This document shows, piece by piece, positions 2,696 through 20,473 of a stretch of 64,000 nt of DNA; the stretch's first letter is position 1; every line of letters begins with the position of its first letter. A model generated the notes under the pieces. That model saw only the letters and a list, made by a program, of their open reading frames with translations. It had not been told where the DNA came from and made no database searches. Source of the DNA: an uncultured Eggerthellaceae bacterium. Lineage in GTDB: Bacteria > Actinomycetota > Coriobacteriia > Coriobacteriales > Eggerthellaceae. The stretch is taken from assembly GCA_947626195.1 (NCBI GenBank), contig CANQRF010000002.1, positions 1-64,000 of the forward strand, given 5' to 3'. A program made the position numbers and the translations under genes.

Positions 2696-2771
2696 TCCTC
2701 GGTAGCTCAATTGGCAGAGCATCCGGCTGTTAACCGGAGGGTTGTAGGTTCGAGTCCTACCCGGGGAGCCA
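2696..2771 (+). tRNA. tRNA-Asn (GUU)
   Basis: A full 76-base cloverleaf with encoded CCA. Acceptor strands TCCTCGG and CCGGGGA pair, the discriminator is G, the D arm contains TAGCTCAATTGGCAGAGC, the anticodon loop is CTGTTAA (anticodon GTT) and the T arm is GTAGGTTCGAGTCCTAC. An intrinsic terminator follows. From the anticodon loop onward the gene is duplicated at 10870, which makes this a candidate integration target. Confidence 0.95.
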
Positions 2772-2846
2772 TGAATTTCCCGACTCAGCAAACCTTGCTG
2801 GGTCGTTTTGTTTTCAGCAATCAAGTGTTGGGTAGGACTCGAACCT
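2727..2846 (+). repeat. Direct repeat copy A: tRNA-Asn 3' half, terminator and flank
   Basis: About 120 bases starting in the tRNA-Asn anticodon loop recur 8143 bases downstream at 10870-10989 in the same orientation with a few substitutions. The copy keeps the tRNA 3' half, the terminator hairpin and the flank to TCGAACC. At 2830-2846 the flank carries GGGTAGGACTCGAACCT, the exact reverse complement of the T-arm segment at 2746-2762. The rest of the gap to 3015 (2847-3015) shows no gene or clear promoter. Confidence 0.85.
2782..2814 (+). terminator. Intrinsic terminator of tRNA-Asn
   Basis: Stem GACTCAGCAA / TTGCTGGGTC (one G-T pair) with a 3-base loop, followed by GTTTTGTTTT. The same hairpin is repeated in the truncated copy near 10925. 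Confidence 0.8.
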
Positions 2847-3015
2847 CGCAGCACCCGAAAACCTCTGCCATCTATCTCCCATCGCCTTAATTGGCCGATT
2901 GGCGCAAAAGATTGGCCATGAGGTCTATGTTGCGGAATGCGGGTCGTTTTGCTGCGGGATTCGCGCTAGATTAACGATGAGCACGTACACCTGAATCAGG
3001 GAACGGGGGAAAGCT

Positions 3016-3516
3016 ATGGCAGAGCTCGGCGACGTGGTAAGAATCAACTATGCGGGCAGGCTCGAGGATGGCCGCGAGTTTGAAAGCAGCTGGCGAACCG
3101 GAGAGCCCCTTGATGCCAAGCTCGGATCGGGGCGGCTTCTTCCGCAAGTGGAGCAGACCTTGTGCGAGATGCTTCCGGGGGAGCGGCGAACGCTGCGGCT
3201 TGCTCCCGAGCGTGCTTACGGCATCTACGATGAGACCCTGATTCAAACCATTCCCCTTGACAGATTGCCGAATGCCGATCAGCTACCTGTCGGCGATTAC
3301 ATTGAGATCAAAACCGCCCGAGGAACGATTCGCGCAAAAGTGCTTTCCGTCGGGGATAATGGCATTGTCTTGGATCTCAACCACGAACTCGCGGGGGAAA
3401 CGGTGATCTTCGATCTGGAGCTGTTGGCGATCATCCATGAGACGGCGATCCATAAGGAGCTTCATCCCGAGGGCTGCACTTGTGGCTGCGATCGGCTGAA
3501 AGAGCAAATTGGGTGA
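3016..3516 (+). CDS. slyD: SlyD-type FKBP peptidyl-prolyl isomerase
   Basis: A 166-residue cytoplasmic prolyl isomerase/metallochaperone. The FKBP fold is interrupted by an insert-in-flap domain in SlyD order: GDVVRINYAGRLEDGREFESS at the N-terminus, AYGIYDETLIQTIP at about 68-80, and the conserved return strand LNHELAGETVIFDLELL at 121-137. The tail carries C154, C156 and C158 in GCTCGCDR, a short version of the SlyD metal-binding tail, which in other bacteria delivers nickel to metalloenzymes. GGGGGAAAG precedes ATG at 3016. It is the first gene inside the tRNA-bracketed segment, upstream of a molybdenum enzyme locus, so a role in metal supply or folding there is possible but only inferred. 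Confidence 0.85.
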   Translation: MAELGDVVRINYAGRLEDGREFESSWRTGEPLDAKLGSGRLLPQVEQTLCEMLPGERRTLRLAPERAYGIYDETLIQTIPLDRLPNADQLPVGDYIEIKTARGTIRAKVLSVGDNGIVLDLNHELAGETVIFDLELLAIIHETAIHKELHPEGCTCGCDRLKEQIG

Positions 3517-3581: not shown

Positions 3582-3992
3582 ATGTGCTATGCGGCATCGT
3601 GTAATCCCTCTTGCGGCCAATGTCGCCCCAAGCGCATTTTCACGGTGCATTGTCCCGATTGCGGCGCTCCTCGGGAAGTCACCCGCGAGGAATATCTCAT
3701 CCTCTTCGACCTTCCCCATCGAAAAAATCCCATAGAGCGGAAGCTTATCGAAAGGGGAGCGGGAGAAACGCCCTATTGCAAGGGTTGTGGCCGTGATCTC
3801 ACGGAGACGGTGAGGGGGGCGATCGTTCCGGCTCCATGTCGCGCTCAGCGGATCCTGTGCGGCTTTCCCTGCGGACGCTCCAGCGAACCCGAACGGGAGG
3901 GGGCAATGCCTTGCCCGACCATGGTGCCTTTGCAAAGGCTTGATATTTCCCATCAGGAACGGGAGGATCGAGATGAAGCATTGCCGTTATGA
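3582..3992 (+). CDS. Cysteine-rich zinc-ribbon-like protein
   Basis: A 136-residue protein of unknown function. ATG at 3582 follows GGGAGGAG; a TTG at 3552 is a weaker alternative. Cysteines are dense at C2, C7, C11, C14, C24, C27, C66, C69, C86, C93, C97 and C111; CPDCG (24-28) with CKGCG (66-70) could form one zinc ribbon and CNPSCGQC (7-14) contributes to another site. The last 20 bases overlap the start of the sensor kinase, suggesting co-transcription. The tail is rich in Glu and Arg. It could sense metal or redox state for the two-component system, but that is speculation. Confidence 0.65.
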   Translation: MCYAASCNPSCGQCRPKRIFTVHCPDCGAPREVTREEYLILFDLPHRKNPIERKLIERGAGETPYCKGCGRDLTETVRGAIVPAPCRAQRILCGFPCGRSSEPEREGAMPCPTMVPLQRLDISHQEREDRDEALPL

Positions 3993-5106
3993 GACCCTCC
4001 TTGCACTCAGCAAGGCCATGCGCTGGTCAGCTGAGCCGGAAATGGTGTACCAAGGGTTCGTCGATGTGTGCGTTGAATACCTCGAATGCGACGTCGCCCA
4101 TCTTCATCTTTTGGAGCCCGATGGAAAGACCTTCCACCACCTCGCGTTCCATGACGGTCAAGTCGATCCCGACTATTACATGAAGCCGCTGACAACAAGC
4201 GTCGGACGCATGGCGTGGATGATGGAGACGGGCGATTTGATCGTGATGGAGGACTACGCCCACCCGCATGCCGATGACGTGATACCTGAAGTGGCCGTCG
4301 AGGCGGGATTTCGCAGCGCCGTCAGCATTCCGCTCTGCTCTTCGTCGGGCATCCTCGGCATGCTCTCCATCGTCTATAAGCGGGACTTGCCGTGGCAAGA
4401 CGATGATCGAAGCTATCTCTTGGACATCGGATCGGTGCTGGGAACGTTCATCCAGCGAATTCAGATGCAGAAGAAAGATCTCGAATTTCAAGTGCTCAGG
4501 GAACGCAAGCAGCTCAGCAGCGAAATTCATGATAACGTCTCACAGATGGTGAGCGCGCTGGCAATCCATGCAGACATCGCGCAGGATTGCTTTGAGAACG
4601 ACGACCATGAGATGCTCGGCGAAAAATTGAAAATAATAACCGATCAAGCCCGCCAGATCACGAAGGTGCTGCGCGAGGAGATGCTCTCGCTTCGGACCCC
4701 GATCGATTCGTGCGAGAGCGTCACGGACGTTTTGTCAGACATATTGGATCGGTTCAACGAGCAATGGGACATCAACGTCACCTTTGAGAGCGCCATGGAT
4801 TCACCGCCGAAGCTTTCTGACTATACGCGGCTCCAGTTGGTGCGCATCGTCAACGAGAGCCTCCAAAATATATTGCGCCATGCGCGGGCTCATAACGTCA
4901 ACGTGCGCATGATGCGGCGAAACAGCCACGTGCGTATCGATATTGTCGACGACGGTGTGGGCTTCGATATTGAAAACGTGGCTCCGGAGCGTCTCGGCAT
5001 CCGTATCATGCGTGAGAGAGCGGCCGCCGCCGATGGCCGCCTGAGCGTCGTCTCTGGTTGCGATGGCACCACGGTGTCCCTCGAATTTCCTGTTGTGCGC
5101 GGTTGA
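3973..5106 (+). CDS. Cytoplasmic GAF-domain sensor histidine kinase (NarX/LiaS class)
   Basis: A 377-residue sensor kinase. ATG at 3973 follows GGGAGGATCG inside the end of the preceding gene. Residues 15-160 read as a GAF sensor (ECDVAHLHLLEPDGKTF, then AGFRSAVSIPLCSSSGILGML). A short coiled coil leads to a HisKA_3 box SSEIHDNVSQ with phospho-acceptor H186, and then an HATPase domain with NESLQNILRHA, DDGVGFD and GIRIMRERA. There is no transmembrane segment or signal peptide, so the ligand or redox cue is sensed inside the cell. It lies directly before a NarL-type regulator, with only 11 bases between genes. The cue is probably related to the downstream molybdenum enzyme. Confidence 0.88.
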   Translation: MKHCRYETLLALSKAMRWSAEPEMVYQGFVDVCVEYLECDVAHLHLLEPDGKTFHHLAFHDGQVDPDYYMKPLTTSVGRMAWMMETGDLIVMEDYAHPHADDVIPEVAVEAGFRSAVSIPLCSSSGILGMLSIVYKRDLPWQDDDRSYLLDIGSVLGTFIQRIQMQKKDLEFQVLRERKQLSSEIHDNVSQMVSALAIHADIAQDCFENDDHEMLGEKLKIITDQARQITKVLREEMLSLRTPIDSCESVTDVLSDILDRFNEQWDINVTFESAMDSPPKLSDYTRLQLVRIVNESLQNILRHARAHNVNVRMMRRNSHVRIDIVDDGVGFDIENVAPERLGIRIMRERAAAADGRLSVVSGCDGTTVSLEFPVVRG

Positions 5107-5117
5107 TGGAGGCAGCA

Positions 5118-5816
5118 ATGGGCAACGACGTGACCCGCATTCTTTTGGTGGACGACCAGGTCCTTTATCGCGAGGCACTCCGCGGGTTGATCGATCGGTG
5201 GGACGAATTCGAGGTCATCGGCGAGGCATCCGATGGCAAGGAGGCCATCGATCTCGCGCTTTCCCTTGAGCCGGATTTGATACTGATGGATATTCGGATG
5301 CCTGGGATGGATGGCATCACGGCGGCTCAGGCGGTGCTCACCCATAAGCCCGACCTGCCCATTGTGATGCTGACGGTCGAGGCGGATGCTTCCCGGGTGT
5401 TCGACTCGCTCCAGATCGGCGTGCGGGGCTATCTTCTCAAGGACACACCGGCCCGAAAGCTCCGTGATCGTCTTCGAGCGGTCATGCAGGGCGAGGCGAC
5501 GCTCTCTGAATCGGTGACCGGTTCGGTGTTCGATGAGTTCGCCCGCCTGCGATTGGGTGATGCGTGCACGGTCCCCGACATGGGGCGCCGTCCGACATGG
5601 CATGGGTCAGACCAGCTCACGGCACGGGAAAAGGATGTATTGCGGCTCGTGGCGCAGGGCAAATCGAATGAGGACATCGCCTCCGAGCTCTATCTGAGTC
5701 TCGGCACCGTCAAAAAGCAGATTTCCGCCATCATGATGCGTTTGGGATTGGATAACCGCGTGCAGCTGGCGGTGTATGCGGTGAGAGCTGGATTGGATAA
5801 AAGCACGCATTCGTAA
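5118..5816 (+). CDS. NarL/LuxR-family response regulator
   Basis: A 232-residue regulator paired with the kinase just upstream. The receiver domain has the acidic pair VDD at 11-13, phospho-acceptor D58 in LILMDIRMPGMDG, T86 and K108. The C-terminal LuxR helix-turn-helix is LTAREKDVLRLVAQGKSNED followed by LYLSLGTVKKQISAIMMRLG. GGAGG lies 5 bases before ATG at 5118; an ATG at 5106 overlapping the kinase stop (TGATG) is also in frame. Its likely target is the promoter region 5817-5966 of the oxidoreductase operon, by position only. Confidence 0.9.
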   Translation: MGNDVTRILLVDDQVLYREALRGLIDRWDEFEVIGEASDGKEAIDLALSLEPDLILMDIRMPGMDGITAAQAVLTHKPDLPIVMLTVEADASRVFDSLQIGVRGYLLKDTPARKLRDRLRAVMQGEATLSESVTGSVFDEFARLRLGDACTVPDMGRRPTWHGSDQLTAREKDVLRLVAQGKSNEDIASELYLSLGTVKKQISAIMMRLGLDNRVQLAVYAVRAGLDKSTHS

Positions 5817-5966: not shown

Positions 5967-8687
5967 ATGAGCGACTTGAAAACGACGGTGCAAAGCATCG
6001 CATGCGGCGGCACGGGTGGTGACCTCACCTATGTCGACAGCAAAGATGGCAAGATCGTCCGTATTCGTCCCGTCCACTATCTCGATAAGTACACAGAGGA
6101 GGAACTTGAGCCCTCGATGTGGACGATCAAGGTGGGGGACAAAGAGTTTCGCCCTGGGCTGAAGGCGGCCCCGAACTATTTCGCACTCGCCTACAAAAAC
6201 CGTGTGTACTCCAAAAACCGCGTGAAGTATCCTTTGAAGCGCGTGGACTGGGAACCCGGCGGTGATCCTGACAAAATCAACGCAGCCAATCGCGGCAAAT
6301 CCAAGTTCAAGCGCATCAGCTGGGATGAGGCCCTCGATATTATGGAGTCCGAGATCAAGCGCATCATCGACACCTATGGCCCCTATTCAGTGCTGACGAT
6401 CGGCGAGGATGGTCACCGCGAATCGAAGAACCTGCATGCCGGCGGCGGCATGCACTCGACGCTTATGAGCAAGCTCGGCGGCTACACGCGCGAAGTGCGC
6501 ACCCCCGACTCCGTGGAAGGTTGGTACTGGGGCGCCAAGCATTTCTGGGGCTCGGGCTGCAACAAGGGCCTCGGCATGCCGGCACCTCCGCAGACAGGCT
6601 ATAATCCGTGGCACGTGCTGCGCGACATCTCCGAGCATTCGGAAATGATCGCCTTCGCGGCCGGTGACTGGGAGCTCACCCAAAACTATGCGTCGCAGAT
6701 GTGGTCTCGGCTCATCAAGTTCTGGGAAGAGTGCGGCAAGGAGTTCGTCGTCGTTGACCCGTTCTGCAACTACACTGCCGTCTGCCATGACACGATGAAG
6801 TGGATTCCGATTCTGCCGAATACCGATGCGGCCCTCGACTTCGCCGTCATGTACGTTTGGATCACCGAGGATCTCTACGACAAGGAATACGTCGAGACCC
6901 ACTCCGTCGGCTTCGACAAAGTGAAAGCCTATGTGCTTGGCGAAGACGAAGAGGGCATCCCCAAGACTCCCGCTTGGGCCGCTGAACGCACAGGCATCCC
7001 CGAATACACCATCAAGGCTTACGCACGCAACCGCGCAAAGCTGGTGACCGCGGCGGTGCATTTCAGCTCCGGCACCATCAAGGGCCCCTACAGCTTCGAG
7101 CCGGGGCGTACGGCAGCCTATTTGCTCGGCATGCAAGGGCTGGGCAAGCACGGTGTCCAGATCGCCTATATGAATGCCTCGCTCATCGGCAAGGAGACCA
7201 TCGCTCGATCCACGTCGGCGCCGTTCAGCATGGCGAACCAATGCCGCATGTTCTATCCCTCGGAGCAGAAGATCCCACGCACGCTTGTTGCCGAAGCCCT
7301 GCTCGAGGGCCATGCCGAATGGTATGGGTCTCCCGCCATCGTCTACGTGGAGACGTCGGAGCAATTCCAAAAGAACACCTATCCCACCACAGCCGAGTCC
7401 TATGCCGCCGCATTGGGTACCGCCTCTCCGGAAATGGCTCGCGCTCAAGGCAAATCGGTGGAGGAGATGCAAGCCGCCATCGACTACAAGCTCAATCACA
7501 TGCCCAAGTTCTCGAAGATCCATATGCTGTGGTCTGAGAAGCCCTGCAATATGAACTGCTGGGACGGCGGCTTCCGCTATCAGGATGCCATCCGCACCAA
7601 TGAGGTGGAGTTCTTCGTCACCAACCATCAGTGGCTCGAGAATGACTCGCTGTTCGCCGATCTCGTCTTGCCGGTCACCACTTGCGTCGAGGACGACGAT
7701 ATGATGGGCGGCTCGATGGTCGTATCGCTGCGCTCATCGGCTATCACGCCTCCGGGCTGCGATCGGGTGGGCGAGTCGAAGTCCGACTTCGAGATCGCCT
7801 GCGAGATAGGCGAACGTTTCGGCGTGCGCGACCAAATCGATATGGGCATGACCTATGCCGAGTGGCGCCAATTCGAATATGACAACTCCCGTCTCGGAGA
7901 GGAGATCACCTGGGAAGACCTCAACGAGAAGGGCTTCTACTTCCCGAAGCAGGATCCCAATCAGGACATGCTGCCACCGGGAATGTATGGCTTCTATAGC
8001 GATCCTGAGGCAAACCCGCTCGACACGCCCACCGGCAAGCTTGAGTTCTGGTCCGAGGCGCTGGCCACGCATTTCCCCGACGACAAAGAGCGCACTCCGA
8101 TGGCCCGGTGGACGATCGGCGGTCCCGAATCCGAAGGCTGGAGCCACGATGAGACGCTCTGGGGTGAGCGGTGCAAGGATTACCCGCTCTTGCTCGTCGC
8201 CAATCCGGCCCGTTGGCGCGTGCATGTTCAGGGCGATGACATCATGTGGTTCCGCGAGTTCGAGACGATGAAGGTTGAAGGCCCGGATGGCTACAAATAT
8301 GAGCCCATCTGGATCAATCCGGTTGACGCTGATGCGCGCGGCATCAAAGCCGGCGATATCGTCAAGATCTATAACAACCGTGGCACGATTCTGACCGGCG
8401 CGCGGATCTCCGAGCGCGTCATTCCGGGCGCCGTGGTCATCAACAAGGGATCGCGCGTGGATCCGATCGCCCCCCATCTCGATCGCGGCGGTGCGGCCAA
8501 TCTGATCTGCCCCGAAAACCAAGTGTCGAAGAACTGCCGCGGATTTGCCGTATCGGGCTATCTCGTTGAAGCGGCCAAGGTCCAATCGGCTGAAATGGAT
8601 GAATGGAAGCGCGATTATCCGGAGGCGTTCGCCCGCGATTACGATCCGGCTATCGGCATCAACTACAACTCGTGGGTCGTCGACTAG
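5967..8687 (+). CDS. Molybdopterin oxidoreductase, pyrogallol hydroxytransferase-like large subunit
   Basis: A 906-residue bis-MGD enzyme of the DMSO reductase superfamily. ATG at 5967 follows GAGAGAGGAG. It resembles the large subunit of pyrogallol-phloroglucinol transhydroxylase along its length as I recall that sequence: TPDSVEGWYWGAKHFWG (D181, S182) matches the region whose Ser binds Mo and whose Asp is catalytic there; H150 lies near the catalytic His; PTGKLEFWSEAL, NPVDADARGIKAGDIVKIYNNRG and LDRGGAANLICPENQVSK match the C-terminal cofactor domain. There is no N-terminal CxxC iron-sulfur motif and no Tat signal, so it should act in the cytoplasm with its ferredoxin-like partner encoded next. 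Gut catechol dehydroxylases belong to the same wider group. Likely substrates are phenolic or catecholic compounds; the exact one cannot be read from the sequence. Confidence 0.85.
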   Translation: MSDLKTTVQSIACGGTGGDLTYVDSKDGKIVRIRPVHYLDKYTEEELEPSMWTIKVGDKEFRPGLKAAPNYFALAYKNRVYSKNRVKYPLKRVDWEPGGDPDKINAANRGKSKFKRISWDEALDIMESEIKRIIDTYGPYSVLTIGEDGHRESKNLHAGGGMHSTLMSKLGGYTREVRTPDSVEGWYWGAKHFWGSGCNKGLGMPAPPQTGYNPWHVLRDISEHSEMIAFAAGDWELTQNYASQMWSRLIKFWEECGKEFVVVDPFCNYTAVCHDTMKWIPILPNTDAALDFAVMYVWITEDLYDKEYVETHSVGFDKVKAYVLGEDEEGIPKTPAWAAERTGIPEYTIKAYARNRAKLVTAAVHFSSGTIKGPYSFEPGRTAAYLLGMQGLGKHGVQIAYMNASLIGKETIARSTSAPFSMANQCRMFYPSEQKIPRTLVAEALLEGHAEWYGSPAIVYVETSEQFQKNTYPTTAESYAAALGTASPEMARAQGKSVEEMQAAIDYKLNHMPKFSKIHMLWSEKPCNMNCWDGGFRYQDAIRTNEVEFFVTNHQWLENDSLFADLVLPVTTCVEDDDMMGGSMVVSLRSSAITPPGCDRVGESKSDFEIACEIGERFGVRDQIDMGMTYAEWRQFEYDNSRLGEEITWEDLNEKGFYFPKQDPNQDMLPPGMYGFYSDPEANPLDTPTGKLEFWSEALATHFPDDKERTPMARWTIGGPESEGWSHDETLWGERCKDYPLLLVANPARWRVHVQGDDIMWFREFETMKVEGPDGYKYEPIWINPVDADARGIKAGDIVKIYNNRGTILTGARISERVIPGAVVINKGSRVDPIAPHLDRGGAANLICPENQVSKNCRGFAVSGYLVEAAKVQSAEMDEWKRDYPEAFARDYDPAIGINYNSWVVD

Positions 8688-8709
8688 ACGCCGCTTAGGA
8701 GGAACGATC

Positions 8710-9489
8710 ATGTCTAAAGTCTTTTATATCGACTTGCAGAAATGCACCGGATGCCGCAACTGCCAGATCGCCTGCAAGGACGAGTTCTGCGGCAATTCGT
8801 GGTTGCCCTATGCAGCTGAGCAGCCGGAAATCGGCCAATTCTGGCTCAAGGTGAACGAGAAGGAACGGGGCGCGGGCTCGCATGTGCGTGTTTCCTATAT
8901 CCCCTTCATTGGCGCTCAGACGCAGGCCATTGCCGAGTATGCCCCGGAGGTTTTGATGGATCGCGACGATGGCCTCATCGTGATCGAGCCGGAGAAGGCC
9001 AAGGATCGCAAAGACATCGCCGAGAAGTTCGAAGGCGTCTACTGGAACGAAGAGCTTTGCATTCCGCAAGGCTGCTGCGGGTGCGCCCATCTGCTCGATG
9101 ACGAGGATTCGCCGATCCGCATCCCCCGATGCGTCGACAACTGCCCTGTTGAGGCCATCCAATTCGGCGACGAGTCGGAGTTCGATCTTGCCCATGCCGA
9201 GCGCCTTGACGAAAAGTCCAATGTCTATTACAAGGCACTGCCGCAGACATTCATCGCCGCAACGGTGTACGACCCGAAAGAGATGGAGATCGTCGAAGGG
9301 GCGAAGGTCACGGCGAAAAGCGCCGACGAGACCTTTGAGACGAGCACGAACATGTGGGGTGATTTCTGGTTCAAGGAGATTCCGGCGGCTGATTATACCG
9401 TGACGATTGAGAAAGACGGAAAATCCAAGACCCTTTCGGTTTCGACCCTTGAGAAAGACCAAGGGCTACCCGACATCGCGTTTGAATAA
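8710..9489 (+). CDS. Ferredoxin-like small subunit, hydroxytransferase type, with C-terminal beta domain
   Basis: A 259-residue partner of the molybdenum subunit, starting 22 bases after it behind AGGAGGAAC. C12, C15, C18 and C22 form CTGCRNCQIAC; a second group is C117, C122, C123, C125, C141 and C145 in CIPQGCCGCAHLLDD and RCVDNCP. Residues from about 175 (ATVYDPKEMEIVEGAKVTA) form a Cna-B-like beta barrel, an unusual tail also present in the transhydroxylase small subunit. Compared with that protein as I remember it, the CxxCxxxxC motif and a further Cys before YWNEE are missing (here YIPFIGAQTQAIAEY and AEKFEGVYWNEE), so one of three expected 4Fe-4S clusters is probably lost. It would carry electrons to or from the Mo site. 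Confidence 0.85.
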   Translation: MSKVFYIDLQKCTGCRNCQIACKDEFCGNSWLPYAAEQPEIGQFWLKVNEKERGAGSHVRVSYIPFIGAQTQAIAEYAPEVLMDRDDGLIVIEPEKAKDRKDIAEKFEGVYWNEELCIPQGCCGCAHLLDDEDSPIRIPRCVDNCPVEAIQFGDESEFDLAHAERLDEKSNVYYKALPQTFIAATVYDPKEMEIVEGAKVTAKSADETFETSTNMWGDFWFKEIPAADYTVTIEKDGKSKTLSVSTLEKDQGLPDIAFE

Positions 9490-9504
9490 GAACTGTTGAA
9501 CAGA

Positions 9505-9537
9505 TCGGGGTGGTGCGAGAGATAGGCACCACCCCGA
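9505..9537 (+). terminator. Strong hairpin after the oxidoreductase pair
   Basis: Perfect 12-base stem TCGGGGTGGTGC / GCACCACCCCGA around a 9-base loop, followed by GAGATTTCTCTT. The weak U-run suggests partial termination or 3'-end stabilisation, separating the two enzyme subunits from the small genes downstream. Confidence 0.6.
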
Positions 9538-9562
9538 GAGATTTCTCTTGAAGGATTCGTCT

Positions 9563-9817
9563 ATGTGTTTCAGACCAGCAGAAATCACGATGAAGACCTG
9601 CCCGCAGTGCGGAGCTACGAACAAGCCGGTGGCGAAAGTTTGTGCCGAGTGCGGCGCAGAGCTCGACAATACGAAGATTGACTTCGATGCCGATCAGGCG
9701 GCTCTCGATGCCGCGAACATGATGCCGAGGCAGCCGCAGCCGCCCGCTCCTTCGGGCGCTCCGAAGCCGCCGGAAGCGCCGAGGGCAACCCCGAAACCAC
9801 CTTCAATGGATGCCTAG
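9563..9817 (+). CDS. Small zinc-ribbon protein with proline-rich tail
   Basis: An 84-residue protein. ATG at 9563 has GAAGGA at good spacing; ATG at 9590 is an alternative with poorer context. CPQCGATNKPVAKVCAECG is a classic zinc ribbon of two CxxC pairs. The second half is Pro/Ala-rich (QPQPPAPSGAPKPPEAP) and probably disordered. It lies between the oxidoreductase genes and a VOC-fold gene, probably in the same cluster. Function is unknown. Confidence 0.65.
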   Translation: MCFRPAEITMKTCPQCGATNKPVAKVCAECGAELDNTKIDFDADQAALDAANMMPRQPQPPAPSGAPKPPEAPRATPKPPSMDA

Positions 9818-9825
9818 GAACTGCA

Positions 9826-10122
9826 ATGGAGCGCGCTGATGTGCTCCGTGCGTTTCGGGAGTCTTTCGGTGAGAACGAGATAACCATCAAAACGATTGAT
9901 CCCGTATCGTTGCACCTGATCGCGCTTGACGGCCATCGCTATGCGGAGCGCGAGGATCACACGATCGTGCGCGTTGACGGATGCGATCCGCTGCCGGTGC
10001 GCTTTTACACCACCGCATCCCACGGGGGAGGGCTGACCCTCAAACCCCGCTTTGTCTATCTTGATGGTGCATGGCGAAGCGCCATCGATGGCTCGCGGGA
10101 AACTGATACGGGAGATGAATAG
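9826..10122 (+). CDS. Conserved-looking small protein, unknown function
   Basis: A 98-residue protein with no motif I recognise, starting 8 bases after the zinc-ribbon gene with AGGAA upstream and ending 12 bases before the VOC gene. The sequence alternates strands and polar turns (EITIKTIDPVSLHLIALDG, VRFYTTASHGGGLTLKP), consistent with a small beta-rich fold. Tight spacing implies it is translated with its neighbours and acts in the same pathway. Confidence 0.55.
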   Translation: MERADVLRAFRESFGENEITIKTIDPVSLHLIALDGHRYAEREDHTIVRVDGCDPLPVRFYTTASHGGGLTLKPRFVYLDGAWRSAIDGSRETDTGDE

Positions 10123-10134
10123 GAGGATTTTGCC

Positions 10135-10668
10135 ATGTATGAGACGATTTTGAACAAATACGGGCCCGATCAGCTGTCCTATACGGTCAAAGACATCGAT
10201 GCCGCCGTTCAGGAATTCTACGAGCTGTTCGGCGCTGGCCCGTTCATCAAAATGGGGCCGATGCACTATGAATCCTGCGAGGTTCGCGGCGAGGCGGCCG
10301 ATCCTGAGATCGTGATAGCCCTTGGCATGTGGGGCCCGATGCAGGTGGAATTCGTGCAGAAGCTCAACGACGAGCCAATGCTTTTCGATGAGTGCGGCTA
10401 TGGATTCAACCATGTCAATGTCATCGTCGACAATTTCGATGAGGCGATCAAGTTTCTTGAAGAGAAGGGCTATGCCGTCGGTCAGATGATGACCTCAAGC
10501 GGCAAGCCGATTGCCTATGTGGATACGGCGGTCGATGGCAATATCGGCCATCACCTTGAGATCCACGAATACAATCCGGTGATCGAGATGACCAAAAAGG
10601 CCCGCGAGATCTGGGACGGCAAAAGCCCTTGGATCGATCTCCAAACCGTCATCGCCGCGATGCAATAG
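10135..10668 (+). CDS. VOC superfamily (glyoxalase/dioxygenase fold) protein
   Basis: A 177-residue protein behind a strong AGGAGGA site. Two beta-alpha-beta-beta-beta modules are visible: DQLSYTVKDIDAAVQEFYELFGAGPF at the N-terminus and FNHVNVIVDNFDEAIKFLEEKGYAVG from about 100, ending GHHLEIHEYNP. The His of the second module and the Glu of HLEIHEY are in metal-ligand positions for the fold, but the first-module His is replaced (QLSYTV), so metal binding may be altered. VOC proteins include isomerases, epimerases and ring-cleaving dioxygenases; in an anaerobe next to a hydroxytransferase-like enzyme, isomerisation or binding of an aromatic intermediate is a reasonable guess. Confidence 0.8.
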   Translation: MYETILNKYGPDQLSYTVKDIDAAVQEFYELFGAGPFIKMGPMHYESCEVRGEAADPEIVIALGMWGPMQVEFVQKLNDEPMLFDECGYGFNHVNVIVDNFDEAIKFLEEKGYAVGQMMTSSGKPIAYVDTAVDGNIGHHLEIHEYNPVIEMTKKAREIWDGKSPWIDLQTVIAAMQ

Positions 10669-11181
10669 TGCGATTATACCGTTCAAGCGATACAACCTTC
10701 AGAGTTTGAGGGAATCGAGTTGTCTGCGGTACGAATCAACAGTAGGTGCATAAATAAGTGCGCCTCTGCGACAAAACTTGGCGCAAAGTAACGCAATCTG
10801 CGAAATGCCGACATGCGCTGAACTGGTAATTTGTCTCAGACTGCGCTACTTTGCCACCCGGAACGGCCTCTGTTAACCGGAGGGTTGTAGGTTCGAGTCC
10901 TACCCGTGGAGCCAGAAAACTTCCGGCTCAGCAAACCTTGCTGGGTCGTTTTATTTTCAGCAATCAAGCGTTGGGTAGAACTCGAACCGCGAGGTCGCAA
11001 CAGCGCAGTGCGCTGTTGCGTAAGGAGCGCGAAGCGCGACGTATGAAAATGCAAGCGAAGCGCAGCATTTTCGAGTTCGAATTCAACTCTGTTTCCTGAT
11101 GCTGTCCCATAGTCGCACCATGTGAAGGTCTTATACGAGGTAATCTGTGCTTTATACAGAGCTTCGTTGGAAGGCAGCAGC
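10669..11181. other. Intergenic region with truncated tRNA copy and hairpins
   Basis: A 513-base gap. 10669-10869 is lower in GC and shows no gene. 10870-10989 is the truncated tRNA-Asn repeat. 10996-11091 is a row of inverted repeats: a perfect 12-base-arm palindrome at 10996-11020 (CGCAACAGCGCA / TGCGCTGTTGCG), GAAAATGC / GCATTTTC at 11045-11052 and 11065-11072, and near-palindromic GAGTTCGAATTCAACTC at 11073-11089. No protein-coding signal is convincing. Confidence 0.6.
10870..10989 (+). repeat. Direct repeat copy B: truncated tRNA-Asn 3' half plus terminator
   Basis: Matches 2727-2846: CTGTTAACCGG at 10870-10880, the T arm GTAGGTTCGAGTCCTAC, GCCA at 10911-10914 and the hairpin before GTTTTATTTT. 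One substitution (CCGTGGAG for CCGGGGAG) changes the acceptor strand, and the 5' half of the tRNA is absent, so it cannot make a tRNA. The inverted T-arm element at 10973-10988 is also kept with one mismatch. This is the pattern left at the far end of an element inserted at a tRNA gene, or of a segmental duplication. Confidence 0.8.
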
Positions 11182-12125: not shown

Positions 12126-12152
12126 CTTCATCCGGGTTTGTTAGGGGGATTA

Positions 12153-13454
12153 GTGGAGCGCTTTCTCATGAGCAAGCTGATTGCATGGAAGGGCAAACCG
12201 CATCGCAAGCCCCTCATCCTCAACGGTGCGCGCCAAGTCGGTAAGACATGGCTTTTGAGGGAGTTCGGCCGGACTCAGTTCAAAAACGTCGCGTATGTGA
12301 ATTTAGACGACAACAAAAGAATGCGTGAGCAGTTCGAGTTAGGCTACGACATCCTCCGCATAATCTCCGCTATCCAATTCGAGGCGGGGGAGGTCGTTTC
12401 GGAGAACGGCACGCTCATCATCCTCGACGAGATACAAGAGTGCCCGAAGGCGCTCACCTGCCTCAAATACTTCTGCGAGAACGCACCTCAATACGCCGTC
12501 GCTGCGGCGGGATCCCTCTTAGGCATAACCGTGCATGAGGGCACCGGCTATCCGGTGGGAAAGGTGGAGACGCTTGATCTCTATCCGCTTCATTTTCGGG
12601 AGTTTCTCGTGGCGACGGGCAATCGGGCGCTCTGCGATCTCGTCGATTCCGGCGACACCGCTCTCATAAACAGCTTCTCCAGCAAACTCATACCGCTCCT
12701 TCGCCAGTACTACTACGTGGGAGGAATGCCCGAGGCGGTGAACTTGTTTTTGGAGCGCGGCCTTTTAGAGGATGTGCGGGATGTGCAAAAGGAAATCCTC
12801 CGCGGCTACGAGCGAGACATCTCGAAGCACTTGGGAAGAACTGAGACCGAATACGCGCTCGCGGCATGGCGCTCTATTCCGTTTCATCTCGGTCGCGAGA
12901 ATAAGAAGTTCGTCTTCAGCCGCATCGCGGAGGGGGCGCGGGCGGCGAACTATCGCTCTGGCATCACGTGGCTCACGCAAGCGGGGATTGCGACGCTTGT
13001 CCGCAGAATATCGAAGCCCGGCATCCCCTTGGCCCCCTATGCGGACGACACGGCGTTCAAGCTCTTCTTGGTCGATGTCGGCCTCCTCGGCGCGATGGCG
13101 CAGTTGGATAAGGAGACGGTCATTGGCGGCGGCGAGATCTTCGAGGAGTTCAAGGGCGCCCTCACCGAGCAGTATGTTTGCCAGCAGCTCATTTCGGATT
13201 GCGGCCTCGTTCCCTATTATTGGTCAGCCGAGAACTCGTCGGGCGAGATCGATTTTCTGGCACAGGCTGCGAGCAGCGTCTTTGCCATCGAGGTAAAGGC
13301 GGAGGAGAACCTTCGATCGAAAAGCCTTCGCGCGTTCAAGGATTCCCATCCCACAATCAAATCGGTGCGGTTCAGCCTTTCGGGTTATCGTGAGCAGGAT
13401 TGGATGCGGAACGTTCCGCTGTACGCGATGTCGAATGTGGGGCTTTGGGGTTAG
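12153..13454 (+). CDS. AAA_14/DUF4143-type ATPase with nuclease-like C-terminus
   Basis: A 433-residue protein. GTG at 12153 (ERFLMSKLIAWK) matches where such proteins usually begin; ATG at 12168 is an alternative. Walker A is GARQVGKT at 25-32, Walker B is LIILDEIQE, and AAAGSLLG resembles sensor 1. The middle part (VGGMPEAVNLFLE, ERDISKHLG) is typical of the AAA_14 plus DUF4143 family. Near the C-terminus GEIDFLAQ and FAIEVKAEEN give the D...ExK pattern of a PD-(D/E)XK nuclease-like fold. These ATPases are abundant in anaerobes, their roles are poorly known, and some resemble mobile or defence components. It converges with a second, divergent member of the same family 18 bases away. Confidence 0.85.
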   Translation: MERFLMSKLIAWKGKPHRKPLILNGARQVGKTWLLREFGRTQFKNVAYVNLDDNKRMREQFELGYDILRIISAIQFEAGEVVSENGTLIILDEIQECPKALTCLKYFCENAPQYAVAAAGSLLGITVHEGTGYPVGKVETLDLYPLHFREFLVATGNRALCDLVDSGDTALINSFSSKLIPLLRQYYYVGGMPEAVNLFLERGLLEDVRDVQKEILRGYERDISKHLGRTETEYALAAWRSIPFHLGRENKKFVFSRIAEGARAANYRSGITWLTQAGIATLVRRISKPGIPLAPYADDTAFKLFLVDVGLLGAMAQLDKETVIGGGEIFEEFKGALTEQYVCQQLISDCGLVPYYWSAENSSGEIDFLAQAASSVFAIEVKAEENLRSKSLRAFKDSHPTIKSVRFSLSGYREQDWMRNVPLYAMSNVGLWG

Positions 13455-13472: not shown

Positions 13473-14687
13473 TCAGATTGCCCAGATGGGAACGGCCTGC
13501 ACGTTTTGCGCAATCATGCTCGGCCTCGATATTTGGCAGATAACGTGGCCGAAGCCAACCTCGTAATCGGGGATTCCCTCTAGGCAGGCAAAATTCTTCA
13601 CGGCATCTTTTCCCACTAGGGCGCTTGTCTTGACTTCCACGGGATGGAGCACGTGGCCGTTCTGTATGACGAGATCTATCTCGTGTTTTTTCAGGTCGCG
13701 GTAAAACCAGATGTCTCGTATCTCCGCGCCAGCATTCATGTAGCTCTTGATGATCTCCGACACGACGAACGTCTCAAATATCTGGCCCGCGGCTGCGCCG
13801 TTTCTCAGTTGATCCGGCGTCGTCCATCGTGTGAGATAGGAGACAAGACCCGTGTCCATGAAATATATTTTCGGAGCCTTGGCTACGCGCTTGCTGACAT
13901 TTTGCGAAAAAGGATAAACGAGGTGGACGATGCCGCTTGCGCGGAGGATCGAGACCCACGATTGTACGGTCTTGGAATCGACGTCGATGGCGTTTGCAAT
14001 ATCGGATGCATTGAAGAGCTGGCCGGTGCGTGCCGCGCATGCGATCATGAAATCGAGGAACTTTCTCTCGTCCTTGATGTTCACGAGCGTTCTTACATCA
14101 CGTTCGAGATAAGAATGAACGTAGCTCGACCAAAACCTGTCCCACGGTATCTCGTCGACGAAGAGCCGCGGCATGGAGCCCCGTTGAATATGCGACCAGA
14201 CATCTATTCTGTTCCCGTTGCTTGGGGTCGTTTTCTCGATCTTAGCCGGTATATAGGGATGGGGAGTGGCTGATTCATCAAATATCTCGCGAAAGGAGAG
14301 CCCCGACATTTCCAAAATGCCTATTCTTCCAGCAAGAGATTCACTTACACCTTGCATAAGCTCGTATGTTTGGGAACCTGTCAGGGCTATTTGCCCATAG
14401 TCGTTCGATTGATCAACGACGAATTTGATTGTTTGGAAAAGCGACGAGACGCGCTGTATTTCATCGATGATCAACGGCAAGTCATTGGTCTGGAAGAAGA
14501 GAACGGGATCAGTTTCGGCCAGTCGATAGGCGAGAGGGTCTTCCAATGAAACGAAACAGTAGTCTTTCCCCACGCTTTCCATAAGCACGGTCGTTTTGCC
14601 AACCTGCCTCGCTCCTAAAACGAGCACGACTTTGAACTGGCTCAACATCTCCTTGATAGTCGATTCGATTTCCCGTCGAATGTACAT
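13473..14687 (-). CDS. Second AAA_14/DUF4143-type ATPase
   Basis: A 404-residue protein transcribed toward the first ATPase. ATG at 14687 (MYIRREIES) follows AAGGTG; an upstream start would add nine residues. Walker A is GARQVGKT at 25-32, Walker B LPLIIDEIQ, then ALTGSQTYEL. SGLSFREIF, SYLERDVRTLVNI and FMDTGLVSYL are family landmarks. The C-terminal HEIDLVIQ and LHPVEVKTSA supply D...ExK as in the first protein. The two ATPases differ strongly in sequence, so they are not a recent duplication. A perfect 15-base-arm palindrome stands just upstream of the start. Confidence 0.85.
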   Translation of the reverse strand: MYIRREIESTIKEMLSQFKVVLVLGARQVGKTTVLMESVGKDYCFVSLEDPLAYRLAETDPVLFFQTNDLPLIIDEIQRVSSLFQTIKFVVDQSNDYGQIALTGSQTYELMQGVSESLAGRIGILEMSGLSFREIFDESATPHPYIPAKIEKTTPSNGNRIDVWSHIQRGSMPRLFVDEIPWDRFWSSYVHSYLERDVRTLVNIKDERKFLDFMIACAARTGQLFNASDIANAIDVDSKTVQSWVSILRASGIVHLVYPFSQNVSKRVAKAPKIYFMDTGLVSYLTRWTTPDQLRNGAAAGQIFETFVVSEIIKSYMNAGAEIRDIWFYRDLKKHEIDLVIQNGHVLHPVEVKTSALVGKDAVKNFACLEGIPDYEVGFGHVICQISRPSMIAQNVQAVPIWAI

Positions 14688-14735
14688 GGCCGCACCTTCT
14701 TTCACGCGCAATTCGCATGTAGTTTAAAGTATAAC

Positions 14736-18526: not shown

Positions 18527-20473
18527 TTATGCAGCTTGCTCAAGGCAATCGGCAACACCGGAGATGATAGCGTTGCTGGTCATGGTCGCACCGCTTACCA
18601 CATCGACGTCGGCGCTGTTCGCCGCGACGATGGCCTCAGGGAGCGCTTCGATGGCCATGGTTCCGATGCCTTGCGTCTCGTTGTTTTCTCCCACTTCCAC
18701 GGAAGCGATCTTGCCGCCCGAAATGGTCACGGTCACCGGAACCGCTCCGTCTTTGCCATCGTAGGCCGCCTCATAGGTTCCGTCGGTGTATGTGGCGTCG
18801 GAAGCTGCGACCGGTGTCGCTTCGCTCTGGGCGCCACTCTCGGGCTCAGGTTCCATAACAGCGTTTGCGGGGTCGAAGTTCGCGGCATTGGCGCCGGCCT
18901 GCCAGCCCCATGACAGAGCTTGGTCGAAGCCGCCGTAATACACGAGGCCCTCTTGCTCGGCGTAGCTGCCGCAAACAACGCCTGCCGCATAAAGGCCGGG
19001 GATGACGCGGTCGTCGTCGGTCAGCACTTCGCTATCGACGCTGGTCTTCACGCCGCCGAACGTCACGTAATACTGAGGGGTGATGGGGAAGGCGAAGAAC
19101 GGCGCCTGTTCGATCTTTGAAACCACGGTCACATCGCGGCCCCAGTCCTCGTCGGTGCCCGTGTCGATGAAGCCGTTGTAGCGTTCGATCTCGTCAAGGA
19201 ATCCCTGCACGTCGCAGTTCATATGTCCTGCGAGCTCTTCCAGCGTGTCGGCTTGGTAGTAGACGGTGCCATCTTTCGTCATGACCTCGGCGTCTTCGTA
19301 TATGACGTGGGCATCGAAACGGTTGTCGAAGACATAGAAGGCGGTTTGGGCGGTCTGGCGGGAGGTTTCACGACCGATGCCGTAGTTCACTTGGTCTTCG
19401 TTCATGAAGCGCTTGCCTTCGAGGTTCACGGCAATGGCAGGGTCTGCCGGTGCGAGCGCGCCATCGTAATAGCCGAAGAGATAGAGGCGTCCTTCAATGG
19501 TATCCCAGTTGCGTGAGCCGGTGCCGCATGGCTGCCAGTTCAGGCCGAGATCCATGCCCCTGAAGCCGGCTCCGATGTTGCGGGCCATTTTATGGCCATC
19601 TCCGGTGAGGTTCATCGAGCCGGTGGTGGAGAGCTGGGCGACTTCGCGCCCGTAATACTGGCTGATCATATCGCGGGACGCGCAGAATGTGCCGGTGGCG
19701 AGGACGACGCCGTTGTTTGCATGAACGGTGATGGTCTTGCCCGTATCGGATTGGTAGGCCTTGACGCCGGTCACCACGCCGTTTTCGTTCTGGATGAACT
19801 CAACGGCCTCGGTGTTCAAGAGCGTTTCGCAGTCGTCCCACTCTTTGATGGTGTTGTAGAGCGAGGTCATGATCGGCTCGTTCTCGGCATGCCAAGTGCG
19901 ATAGGTGGGAGTGTATTCGGTGGCAAGGGCACGACCGAGGGAAACGCCCGTCCACTGAACGCCGGCATTATCTTCGAGCCATTGGCCGACGGGCGCCCAA
20001 AGCTCCATAAAACGGCGTGCGAAGGGGAACTCGGTGGTGGGGAAGTCGCGGCCGAGCTGGCCCATGTAAGACACCCAATGGGTGGCCTTCCAGTCTTCCA
20101 GATAGCTGTCGAAGTCGTCACCGTTTTCGCCGGCATGCTCGTCGGGCCAGAAAGCGAGAATGTCATTGTGGCTCGTGATGGAATCGCCACCGGTCATCGC
20201 GGCCTTCTCAAGCATGATGGAGGTCTTGCCGGCCTCATGCGCCGAGACGGCGGCCATCTGCCCTGCTCCGCCAGCGCCGACGATCACGACATCGGCCGTG
20301 TAATCGTAGGTTGGTTCGGATCCGGCAACTTCAGCCGAGGGCGTTGATCCGGATGTCTGCGATTGAGATGGCGAGCACCCCACCATAGAAAGGCCGGCGC
20401 CCGCAGCGGCGATCGTGCTTGCCGTCAGAGCGCCTTTGAGAAAGTTTCTGCGTGATAACGATTTCATTTTCAT
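18527..20473 (-). CDS. Tat-exported lipoprotein flavin reductase (FAD_binding_2 plus C-terminal FMN_bind)
   Basis: A 648-residue extracytoplasmic reductase of the fumarate reductase/urocanate reductase type. SRRNFLKG at 7-14 is a twin-arginine signal and GLSMVGC ends at lipobox C33, so it should be folded before export and lipid-anchored outside. ADVVIVGAGGAGQMAA at 61-76 binds FAD; GGVKTSVDSEVL and the final GGFDQALSWGWQAGANAA are family landmarks. After an acidic linker the C-terminal FMN-binding domain ends with DVVSGATMTSNA, where T630 is the probable covalent FMN site attached by an ApbE transferase. No heme motif is present, so electrons probably arrive through FMN. The acceptor is an organic molecule I cannot identify. 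GGGAG precedes ATG. Confidence 0.9.
   Translation of the reverse strand: MKMKSLSRRNFLKGALTASTIAAAGAGLSMVGCSPSQSQTSGSTPSAEVAGSEPTYDYTADVVIVGAGGAGQMAAVSAHEAGKTSIMLEKAAMTGGDSITSHNDILAFWPDEHAGENGDDFDSYLEDWKATHWVSYMGQLGRDFPTTEFPFARRFMELWAPVGQWLEDNAGVQWTGVSLGRALATEYTPTYRTWHAENEPIMTSLYNTIKEWDDCETLLNTEAVEFIQNENGVVTGVKAYQSDTGKTITVHANNGVVLATGTFCASRDMISQYYGREVAQLSTTGSMNLTGDGHKMARNIGAGFRGMDLGLNWQPCGTGSRNWDTIEGRLYLFGYYDGALAPADPAIAVNLEGKRFMNEDQVNYGIGRETSRQTAQTAFYVFDNRFDAHVIYEDAEVMTKDGTVYYQADTLEELAGHMNCDVQGFLDEIERYNGFIDTGTDEDWGRDVTVVSKIEQAPFFAFPITPQYYVTFGGVKTSVDSEVLTDDDRVIPGLYAAGVVCGSYAEQEGLVYYGGFDQALSWGWQAGANAANFDPANAVMEPEPESGAQSEATPVAASDATYTDGTYEAAYDGKDGAVPVTVTISGGKIASVEVGENNETQGIGTMAIEALPEAIVAANSADVDVVSGATMTSNAIISGVADCLEQAA

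Follow-up and report, generated by a model that had tools for sequence, protein, structure and literature searches.

Functional role of the operon

The locus described here raises the question of which reaction is served by a small operon for a molybdenum (Mo) enzyme in an uncultured Eggerthellaceae bacterium, and of how the operon came to lie where it does. It is found near the start of contig CANQRF010000002.1, of which the first 64,000 nucleotides (nt) were analysed (the window, G000:C2:1-64000), in a metagenome-assembled genome (MAG) of 1.83 Mb, 33 contigs and 92.8% completeness. Nine genes run head-to-tail on the + strand, from a gene for a SlyD-like FKBP starting at 3016 to a gene for a VOC protein ending at 10668, and the conserved unit extends from 3016 to a repeat at 10870-10991 (Table 1). 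The original prediction had described positions 5967-10668 as a pyrogallol hydroxytransferase-like operon with its own two-component system, an interval that proved too short, although the description and residue numbering given there are correct. The operon is real. Its enzyme represents a variant within the resorcinol hydroxylase/transhydroxylase kind and does not belong to the catechol dehydroxylases. The family of the enzyme, its Mo ligand set, the loss of a cluster site, the conserved partner genes and the bracketing repeats can be read from the sequence. The reading tentatively adopted here is that of a mobile operon behind tRNA-Asn, encoding a cytosolic resorcinol hydroxylase/pyrogallol transhydroxylase-type Mo enzyme that acts on a probably phenolic ring.

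Family and active site of the large subunit

The large subunit matches PF00384, PF01568 and the AhtL-like domain PF21423, all above cut-off (29.7 bits for PF21423, cut-off 27). Its best solved match using phmmer is pyrogallol transhydroxylase 4v4c (2.5e-88, 300 bits), and a profile search gives 3.2e-165 and 554 bits for the same protein, while acetylene hydratase reaches 51 bits with phmmer and 87 bits with the profile. An AlphaFold model (predicted local distance difference test score, pLDDT, 87.9) likewise has 4v4c as its best Foldseek match (E 1.4e-67). In VIA-align, the model aligns to transhydroxylase over 793 residues with Z 36.8 and a root-mean-square deviation of 2.4, a small lead over the dimethyl sulfoxide and trimethylamine N-oxide reductases that follow at Z 34-36. 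Sequence, profile and structure searches thus all place 4v4c first, in agreement with the assignment made originally.

The Asp-Ser pair of the Mo site (D181 and S182) and the nearby His (H150), as pointed out previously, are invariant across 38 homologues with identities as low as 43%. In pyrogallol transhydroxylase, H150, D181 and S182 correspond to H144, D174 and S175. The N-terminus (MSDLKTTVQSIACGGTGG...) contains a single Cys and shows no CxxCxxxC motif, no twin-arginine translocation (Tat) signal and no twin Arg, so the earlier statement that the subunit lacks an Fe-S motif and a Tat signal holds. In a survey of the superfamily, transhydroxylase and resorcinol hydroxylase form one group of cytoplasmic, Ser-ligated enzymes with phenols as substrates (PMC10100899). 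The large subunit displays the sequence features of this RhL/PgtL family, namely a Ser ligand with the Asp-Ser pair and His, no N-terminal [4Fe-4S] cluster and no export signal. With pyrogallol transhydroxylase as its closest solved match, it belongs beside the resorcinol hydroxylase/transhydroxylase family and not with the catechol dehydroxylases. Gut catechol dehydroxylases have acetylene hydratase as their closest characterised relative and cluster apart from transhydroxylase (PMC7028382). The link to them drawn in the original prediction is weak, given 87 bits to acetylene hydratase and 554 bits to transhydroxylase.

Loss of the third cluster in the small subunit

The small subunit gives Fer4-type matches below the Pfam cut-offs and PF13620 at its C-terminus. 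Its best match is the transhydroxylase small subunit, C-terminal domain included, and the C-terminal beta domain recognized earlier is present. The transhydroxylase small subunit has twelve cluster Cys for three [4Fe-4S] clusters, four of which are together missing from the window small subunit (CxHCxxxPC and the Cys of CPY), so that two [4Fe-4S] clusters are expected; this loss had escaped the original prediction. Among the collected homologues, the third-cluster segment contains eight, four or essentially no Cys. The cluster-less segment is 62-75% identical to that of the window in divergent subunits with a remainder that is merely 46-52% identical, and shares about 25-44% identity with the cluster-binding versions. 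The two versions do not track the large-subunit tree; for example, one genome (G112, L054) pairs a cluster-less segment with a large subunit placed among three-cluster relatives, and the small-subunit tree contains a minimum of two changes between versions. Segmental exchange would most simply account for this pattern, the alternative being a strong functional constraint on the segment.

The third cluster is retained in the Gordonibacter orthologues (L044 and L045), which share the same operon and whose large subunit is 84-85% identical to that of the window, while the window enzyme lacks it. If these enzymes share a reaction, the third cluster would be dispensable, which favours, without proving, a chemistry that does not need a long electron relay. 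The two-cluster small subunit bears on whether transhydroxylase chemistry needs the Fe-S relay.

Distribution of the enzyme family

Orthologues of the large subunit with 64-91% identity (clade A) are found in Gordonibacter sp. 28C, Gordonibacter Marseille-P2775, Adlercreutzia murintestinalis, Adlercreutzia sp. ZJ473 and MAGs, several of which come from animal guts according to their record titles. Clade B comprises enzymes with 50-59% identity and the broad clade C those with 43-46%. The clade A tree is well supported internally; no weight is placed on its root branch to transhydroxylase, which is long. At least one family member is present in 52 of the 138 Eggerthellaceae genomes (E <= 1e-50), and a class-wide draw returned 53 positive genomes out of 398 (E <= 1e-60). 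No transhydroxylase-like enzyme was found at E <= 1e-50 in G042, the sole other genome of the window's genus, and the phage and plasmid collections contained no close relative, the best matches (~31%) being on rhizobial and burkholderial plasmids.

Gordonibacter sp. 28C encodes six transhydroxylase-like copies. Its 3.9 Mb genome (G067) has 76 matches to the molybdopterin dinucleotide-binding domain, and at one of its loci (L135; G067:C5, 12520-17329) a clade C enzyme lies divergent from a nearby Amidohydro_2 protein with a Tat-like leader. It is conceivable that the two form a pair for decarboxylation and hydroxyl transfer.

Bracketing repeats and probable mobility

The unit is flanked by an intact tRNA-Asn gene and a 122-nt copy, 91% identical, of the 3' part of the tRNA and its terminator (2727-2848 and 10870-10991). 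The direct repeat begins at the anticodon arm and extends through the terminator, as in tRNA-borne islands, and its 36-nt core is exact in both copies, with 0 expected by chance and no further match in the window. In G042, an integrase relic (PF00589, 37.5 bits) stands behind tRNA-Asn, with the same genes upstream as in the window (83% identical DNA); tRNA-Asn is therefore a used insertion site.

Similar arrangements are seen elsewhere. A related operon in G113 (L056) lies between tRNA-Ala and a 50-nt, 94% identical copy of the tRNA 3' end and terminator, an orthologous unit in G060 (L038) lies between two terminator-type repeat copies (69-78 nt, 82%), and a wider cluster in G029 (L052) is bracketed by a 61-nt terminator-like repeat (98%). 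A repeat of 286 nt (98%) is found in G011 (L064). The window's own genome contains a clade C paralogue (L070; G000:C15, 6674-14474) together with genes for a membrane protein and an MFS-like protein, all lying between two 97% identical copies of the final 137 nt of a neighbouring gene, stop codon included. Repeats with at least 90% identity over at least 50 nt and one copy on each side occur at 6/33 enzyme loci and 0/40 control regions, the latter all from genomes of the same family as the enzyme loci (Fisher p = 0.0065), or at 5/33 and 0/40 when the doubtful L077 is left out (p = 0.016); these p-values are indicative only, as the cases were already known when the rule was chosen and the loci are related to one another. 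Repeats at four loci were not counted as insertion evidence, being intergenic repeat families (L058 and L077, the latter passing the numeric cut), a tRNA against a tRNA (L062) or paralogous genes (L054).

The operon was probably acquired horizontally, and the repeats offer a concrete account of why single metabolic units are distributed patchily among these bacteria. Shortly past the right repeat, two AAA_14/DUF4143 ATPase genes, 12138-13454 (+) and 13473-14711 (-), both match PADLOC PDC-S01, a candidate defence group. This pair may be part of a second insertion at the tRNA-Asn site.

Partner genes and locus layout

The FKBP, the zinc ribbon, the 98-residue family and the VOC protein travel with the enzyme across Coriobacteriia. 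In some 30 clade A loci searched by tblastn, several of them truncated, the VOC gene is found 24 times, FKBP and the zinc ribbon 22 times each, the 98-residue protein 17 times and the two-component pair 10-12 times. Other orthologous loci contain a TetR regulator, an MFS transporter, and a short-chain dehydrogenase/reductase (SDR) or a Zn dehydrogenase. The Zn dehydrogenase was detected in 5 of the 12 genomes searched, in 4 of these 5 beside a clade A or B operon; no relative was found in the window's genome at E <= 1e-15. Phloroglucinol reductase is an SDR (PMC10470551). An identification of the orthologue-adjacent SDR as that enzyme is unsupported, since no phloroglucinol reductase appears by name in its top 60 PDB matches.

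Domain matches agree with the cytosolic GAF kinase and NarL-type regulator originally placed upstream of the enzyme, and the zinc-ribbon, 98-residue and VOC genes predicted downstream are present within 9490-10668. The 98-residue protein is predicted to be mostly beta (model pLDDT 89); it matches nothing in Pfam or NCBIfam and no solved fold clearly, its best Z of 3.5 not being meaningful. The conserved residues Q13, E72, H93 and E142 of the VOC protein could possibly constitute a metal site. The FKBP is a probable maturation chaperone. By analogy, a role of the FKBP, the zinc ribbon and the 98-residue protein in maturation appears reasonable, because accessory genes adjacent to the dopamine dehydroxylase of E. 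lenta are essential for its activity and mostly not for its expression (PMC11887054). The zinc-ribbon proteins of several operons start with the conserved motif MCFRP (window 9563-9817, L039, L044, L045, L054 and L063).

Further along the window, 18527-20473 (-) encodes an FAD/FMN-binding reductase that has a Tat-like leader and lies near a LysR-like gene. The reductase is probably exported and is a typical candidate for respiration on an organic acceptor.

Table 1 Features of the operon and its flanks in the window.
Feature	Position	Strand	Basis
tRNA-Asn (GTT), insertion site of the unit	2696..2771	+	ARAGORN
Left copy of the 122-nt direct repeat (tRNA-Asn 3' part and terminator)	2727..2848	+	91% identical to 10870-10991
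SlyD-like FKBP with Cys/His-rich tail, conserved first gene of the unit	3016..3516	+	PF00254; SlyD-type PDB matches, residues 5-143
Small Cys-rich protein (MCYAASC...)	3582..3992	+	Homologues in G060 and G017 loci
Cytosolic GAF sensor histidine kinase, HisKA_3 type	3973..5106	+	GAF, HisKA_3 and HATPase_c matches
NarL-type response regulator	5118..5816	+	Domain matches; homologues in orthologous loci
Mo-bisPGD large subunit of RhL/PgtL (transhydroxylase) type, 906 residues; H150, D181, S182	5967..8687	+	Domain, profile and structure matches
Small Fe-S subunit, eight cluster-type Cys, C-terminal beta domain	8710..9489	+	Domain matches and alignment
Cluster-less small-subunit segment (IGAQT...EKFEGVYWN), alternative to the CxHCxxAPC...CPY segment	8881..9048	+	Alignment
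Single zinc ribbon, conserved MCFRPAE start, Pro-rich tail	9563..9817	+	PF13240; homologues in other loci
98-residue protein of an undescribed family	9826..10122	+	No Pfam/NCBIfam match; alignment; model pLDDT 89
VOC (Glyoxalase_4) protein; conserved Q13, E72, H93, E142	10135..10668	+	Domain match and alignment
Right copy of the direct repeat (tRNA-Asn 3' fragment and terminator)	10870..10991	+	91% identical to left copy

Proposed mechanism and alternative explanations

A substrate-induced cytosolic operon is plausible. The substrate, probably a polyhydroxylated (phenolic) ring, would enter the cell and be sensed by the GAF kinase/NarL pair, which would induce the operon. The FKBP, zinc ribbon and 98-residue protein may then assist maturation of the enzyme, in which the Ser-ligated Mo together with H150 and D181 would shift a hydroxyl group of the substrate, a reaction that on balance would not require a long electron relay. 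The VOC protein may isomerise or hydrolyse the product, and the unit would pass horizontally among Coriobacteriia. That the substrate is phenolic is likely by analogy, solely with the two characterised relatives (PMC10100899).

Several observations weigh against this proposal. Its substrate is deduced by analogy, and the genome is an incomplete MAG. No integrase was found among the open reading frames between the repeats or in a motif scan of the loci. None of the seven residues that we take to line the substrate pocket of transhydroxylase (Y152, R153, W176, W354, Y404, C557 and Y560) is kept in the large subunit, where they align to A, G, V or gaps, and the Tyr404 loop is absent; the substrate therefore need not be pyrogallol. 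Identity as pyrogallol transhydroxylase itself was rejected, with the Mo-site trio alone kept, these pocket residues not, and the four third-cluster Cys gone from the small subunit. Moreover, the regulator type differs among orthologues, being TetR in some, and the SDR and Zn dehydrogenase beside orthologues are closest to ketoreductases and gluconate 5-dehydrogenase and to ketose reductase/sorbitol dehydrogenase, respectively, a likeness to polyol and gluconate enzymes that would also fit a non-aromatic ring.

From the latter likeness, it could be speculated that the enzyme serves a non-aromatic polyhydroxylated ring or polyol, such as a cyclitol or a compound of the quinate type, in a pathway shared with the VOC protein, SDR and polyol-type Zn dehydrogenase encoded at the orthologous loci. 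This is unlikely, as both characterised relatives act on phenols (PMC10100899), the window unit contains neither dehydrogenase, its genome has no Zn dehydrogenase relative at the threshold given above, and an SDR is compatible with a phenol too, phloroglucinol reductase being one (PMC10470551). A somewhat better, still doubtful, case can be made for a reductive dehydroxylase, which would remove the hydroxyl group and use the substrate as an electron sink, with a soluble ferredoxin-like donor feeding electrons in by way of the small subunit, on the model of the soluble catechol dehydroxylases of Gordonibacter type. Eggerthellaceae are rich in such enzymes, the soluble types are likewise without a Tat signal and paired with a small 4Fe-4S protein (PMC7028382, PMC12771579), and the small subunit still has two cluster sites. 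However, the large subunit is distant from acetylene hydratase (87 vs 554 bits), and other Mo enzymes in the Gordonibacter sp. 28C loci score 38-58 bits compared with 658 for a paralogue. The unit also has no gene for an electron donor or membrane anchor, and its electron relay is shortened, not extended. As for mobility, the bracketing repeat might have arisen by local duplication, or be a second tRNA-Asn remnant present by chance, instead of marking an insertion, which the missing integrase and a GC content that does not deviate would allow. This is quite improbable in view of its extent from anticodon arm to terminator, the integrase relic behind the matching tRNA-Asn of the same genus, the three other genomes with the FKBP-to-VOC unit or a wider cluster between 3'-end/terminator repeats, and the absence of such repeats at 90% identity from the 40 control regions.

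Beyond the proposed mobile operon for a phenol-transforming enzyme, a broader picture can be drawn, rather doubtful as a whole. Here, Coriobacteriia would hold a large family of transhydroxylase-like Mo enzymes that spread on integrase-less single-operon islands behind tRNAs, terminators and gene ends and swap a small-subunit segment switching the third cluster on or off, and the window enzyme would perform hydroxyl transfer on a substrate new to the family. Work on gut phenols in Eggerthellaceae has centred on catechol dehydroxylases. Alongside these, the same bacteria possess the transhydroxylase-like enzymes as a second family, on which no paper was found in the literature searched. As the cultured, transformable strain Gordonibacter sp. 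28C (PMC9734109) carries a window-type orthologue at L045, 9664-12366, the substrate question is directly testable.

Comparison with known systems

The enzyme shares with pyrogallol-phloroglucinol transhydroxylase of Pelobacter acidigallici (AthL/AthS, 4v4c) the fold, the Ser/Asp/His Mo site, the lack of an N-terminal Fe-S cluster, the cytosolic location and the C-terminal beta domain of the small subunit. It differs in having about 26-30% identity, two cluster sites instead of three, other operon partners and a pocket in which the presumed substrate residues are not kept. Resorcinol hydroxylase RhLS of Azoarcus anaerobius is also Ser-ligated and a hydroxylating enzyme of the cytoplasmic RhL/PgtL type, a likeness drawn from its description in PMC10100899, not from sequence. 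The Gordonibacter/Eggerthella-type catechol dehydroxylases belong to the same bis-molybdopterin guanine dinucleotide (bis-MGD) superfamily and occur in the same bacterial family, and the Gordonibacter type is also cytosolic with a small Fe-S partner. However, their clade is related to acetylene hydratase, from which the window enzyme is far removed, and their genes often neighbour those for LuxR-type regulators and MFS proteins. The window unit has a GAF kinase and NarL-type regulator in place of the LuxR- or LysR-type regulators of dehydroxylases, and no MFS gene, though the Gordonibacter orthologues have one. Membership among the catechol dehydroxylases was rejected on bit scores (to acetylene hydratase and to Mo enzymes of Gordonibacter sp. 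28C), not on a tree with verified dehydroxylases. The ellagic acid (eam) cluster of Gordonibacter sp. 28C, sought through its decarboxylase family as a source of such a reference, was not identified with confidence. Finally, the unit resembles tRNA-borne genomic islands in that it is inserted at the 3' end of a tRNA and bordered by a direct repeat, yet it is a single operon of ~8 kb with no integrase inside, and other copies use gene 3' ends and terminators.

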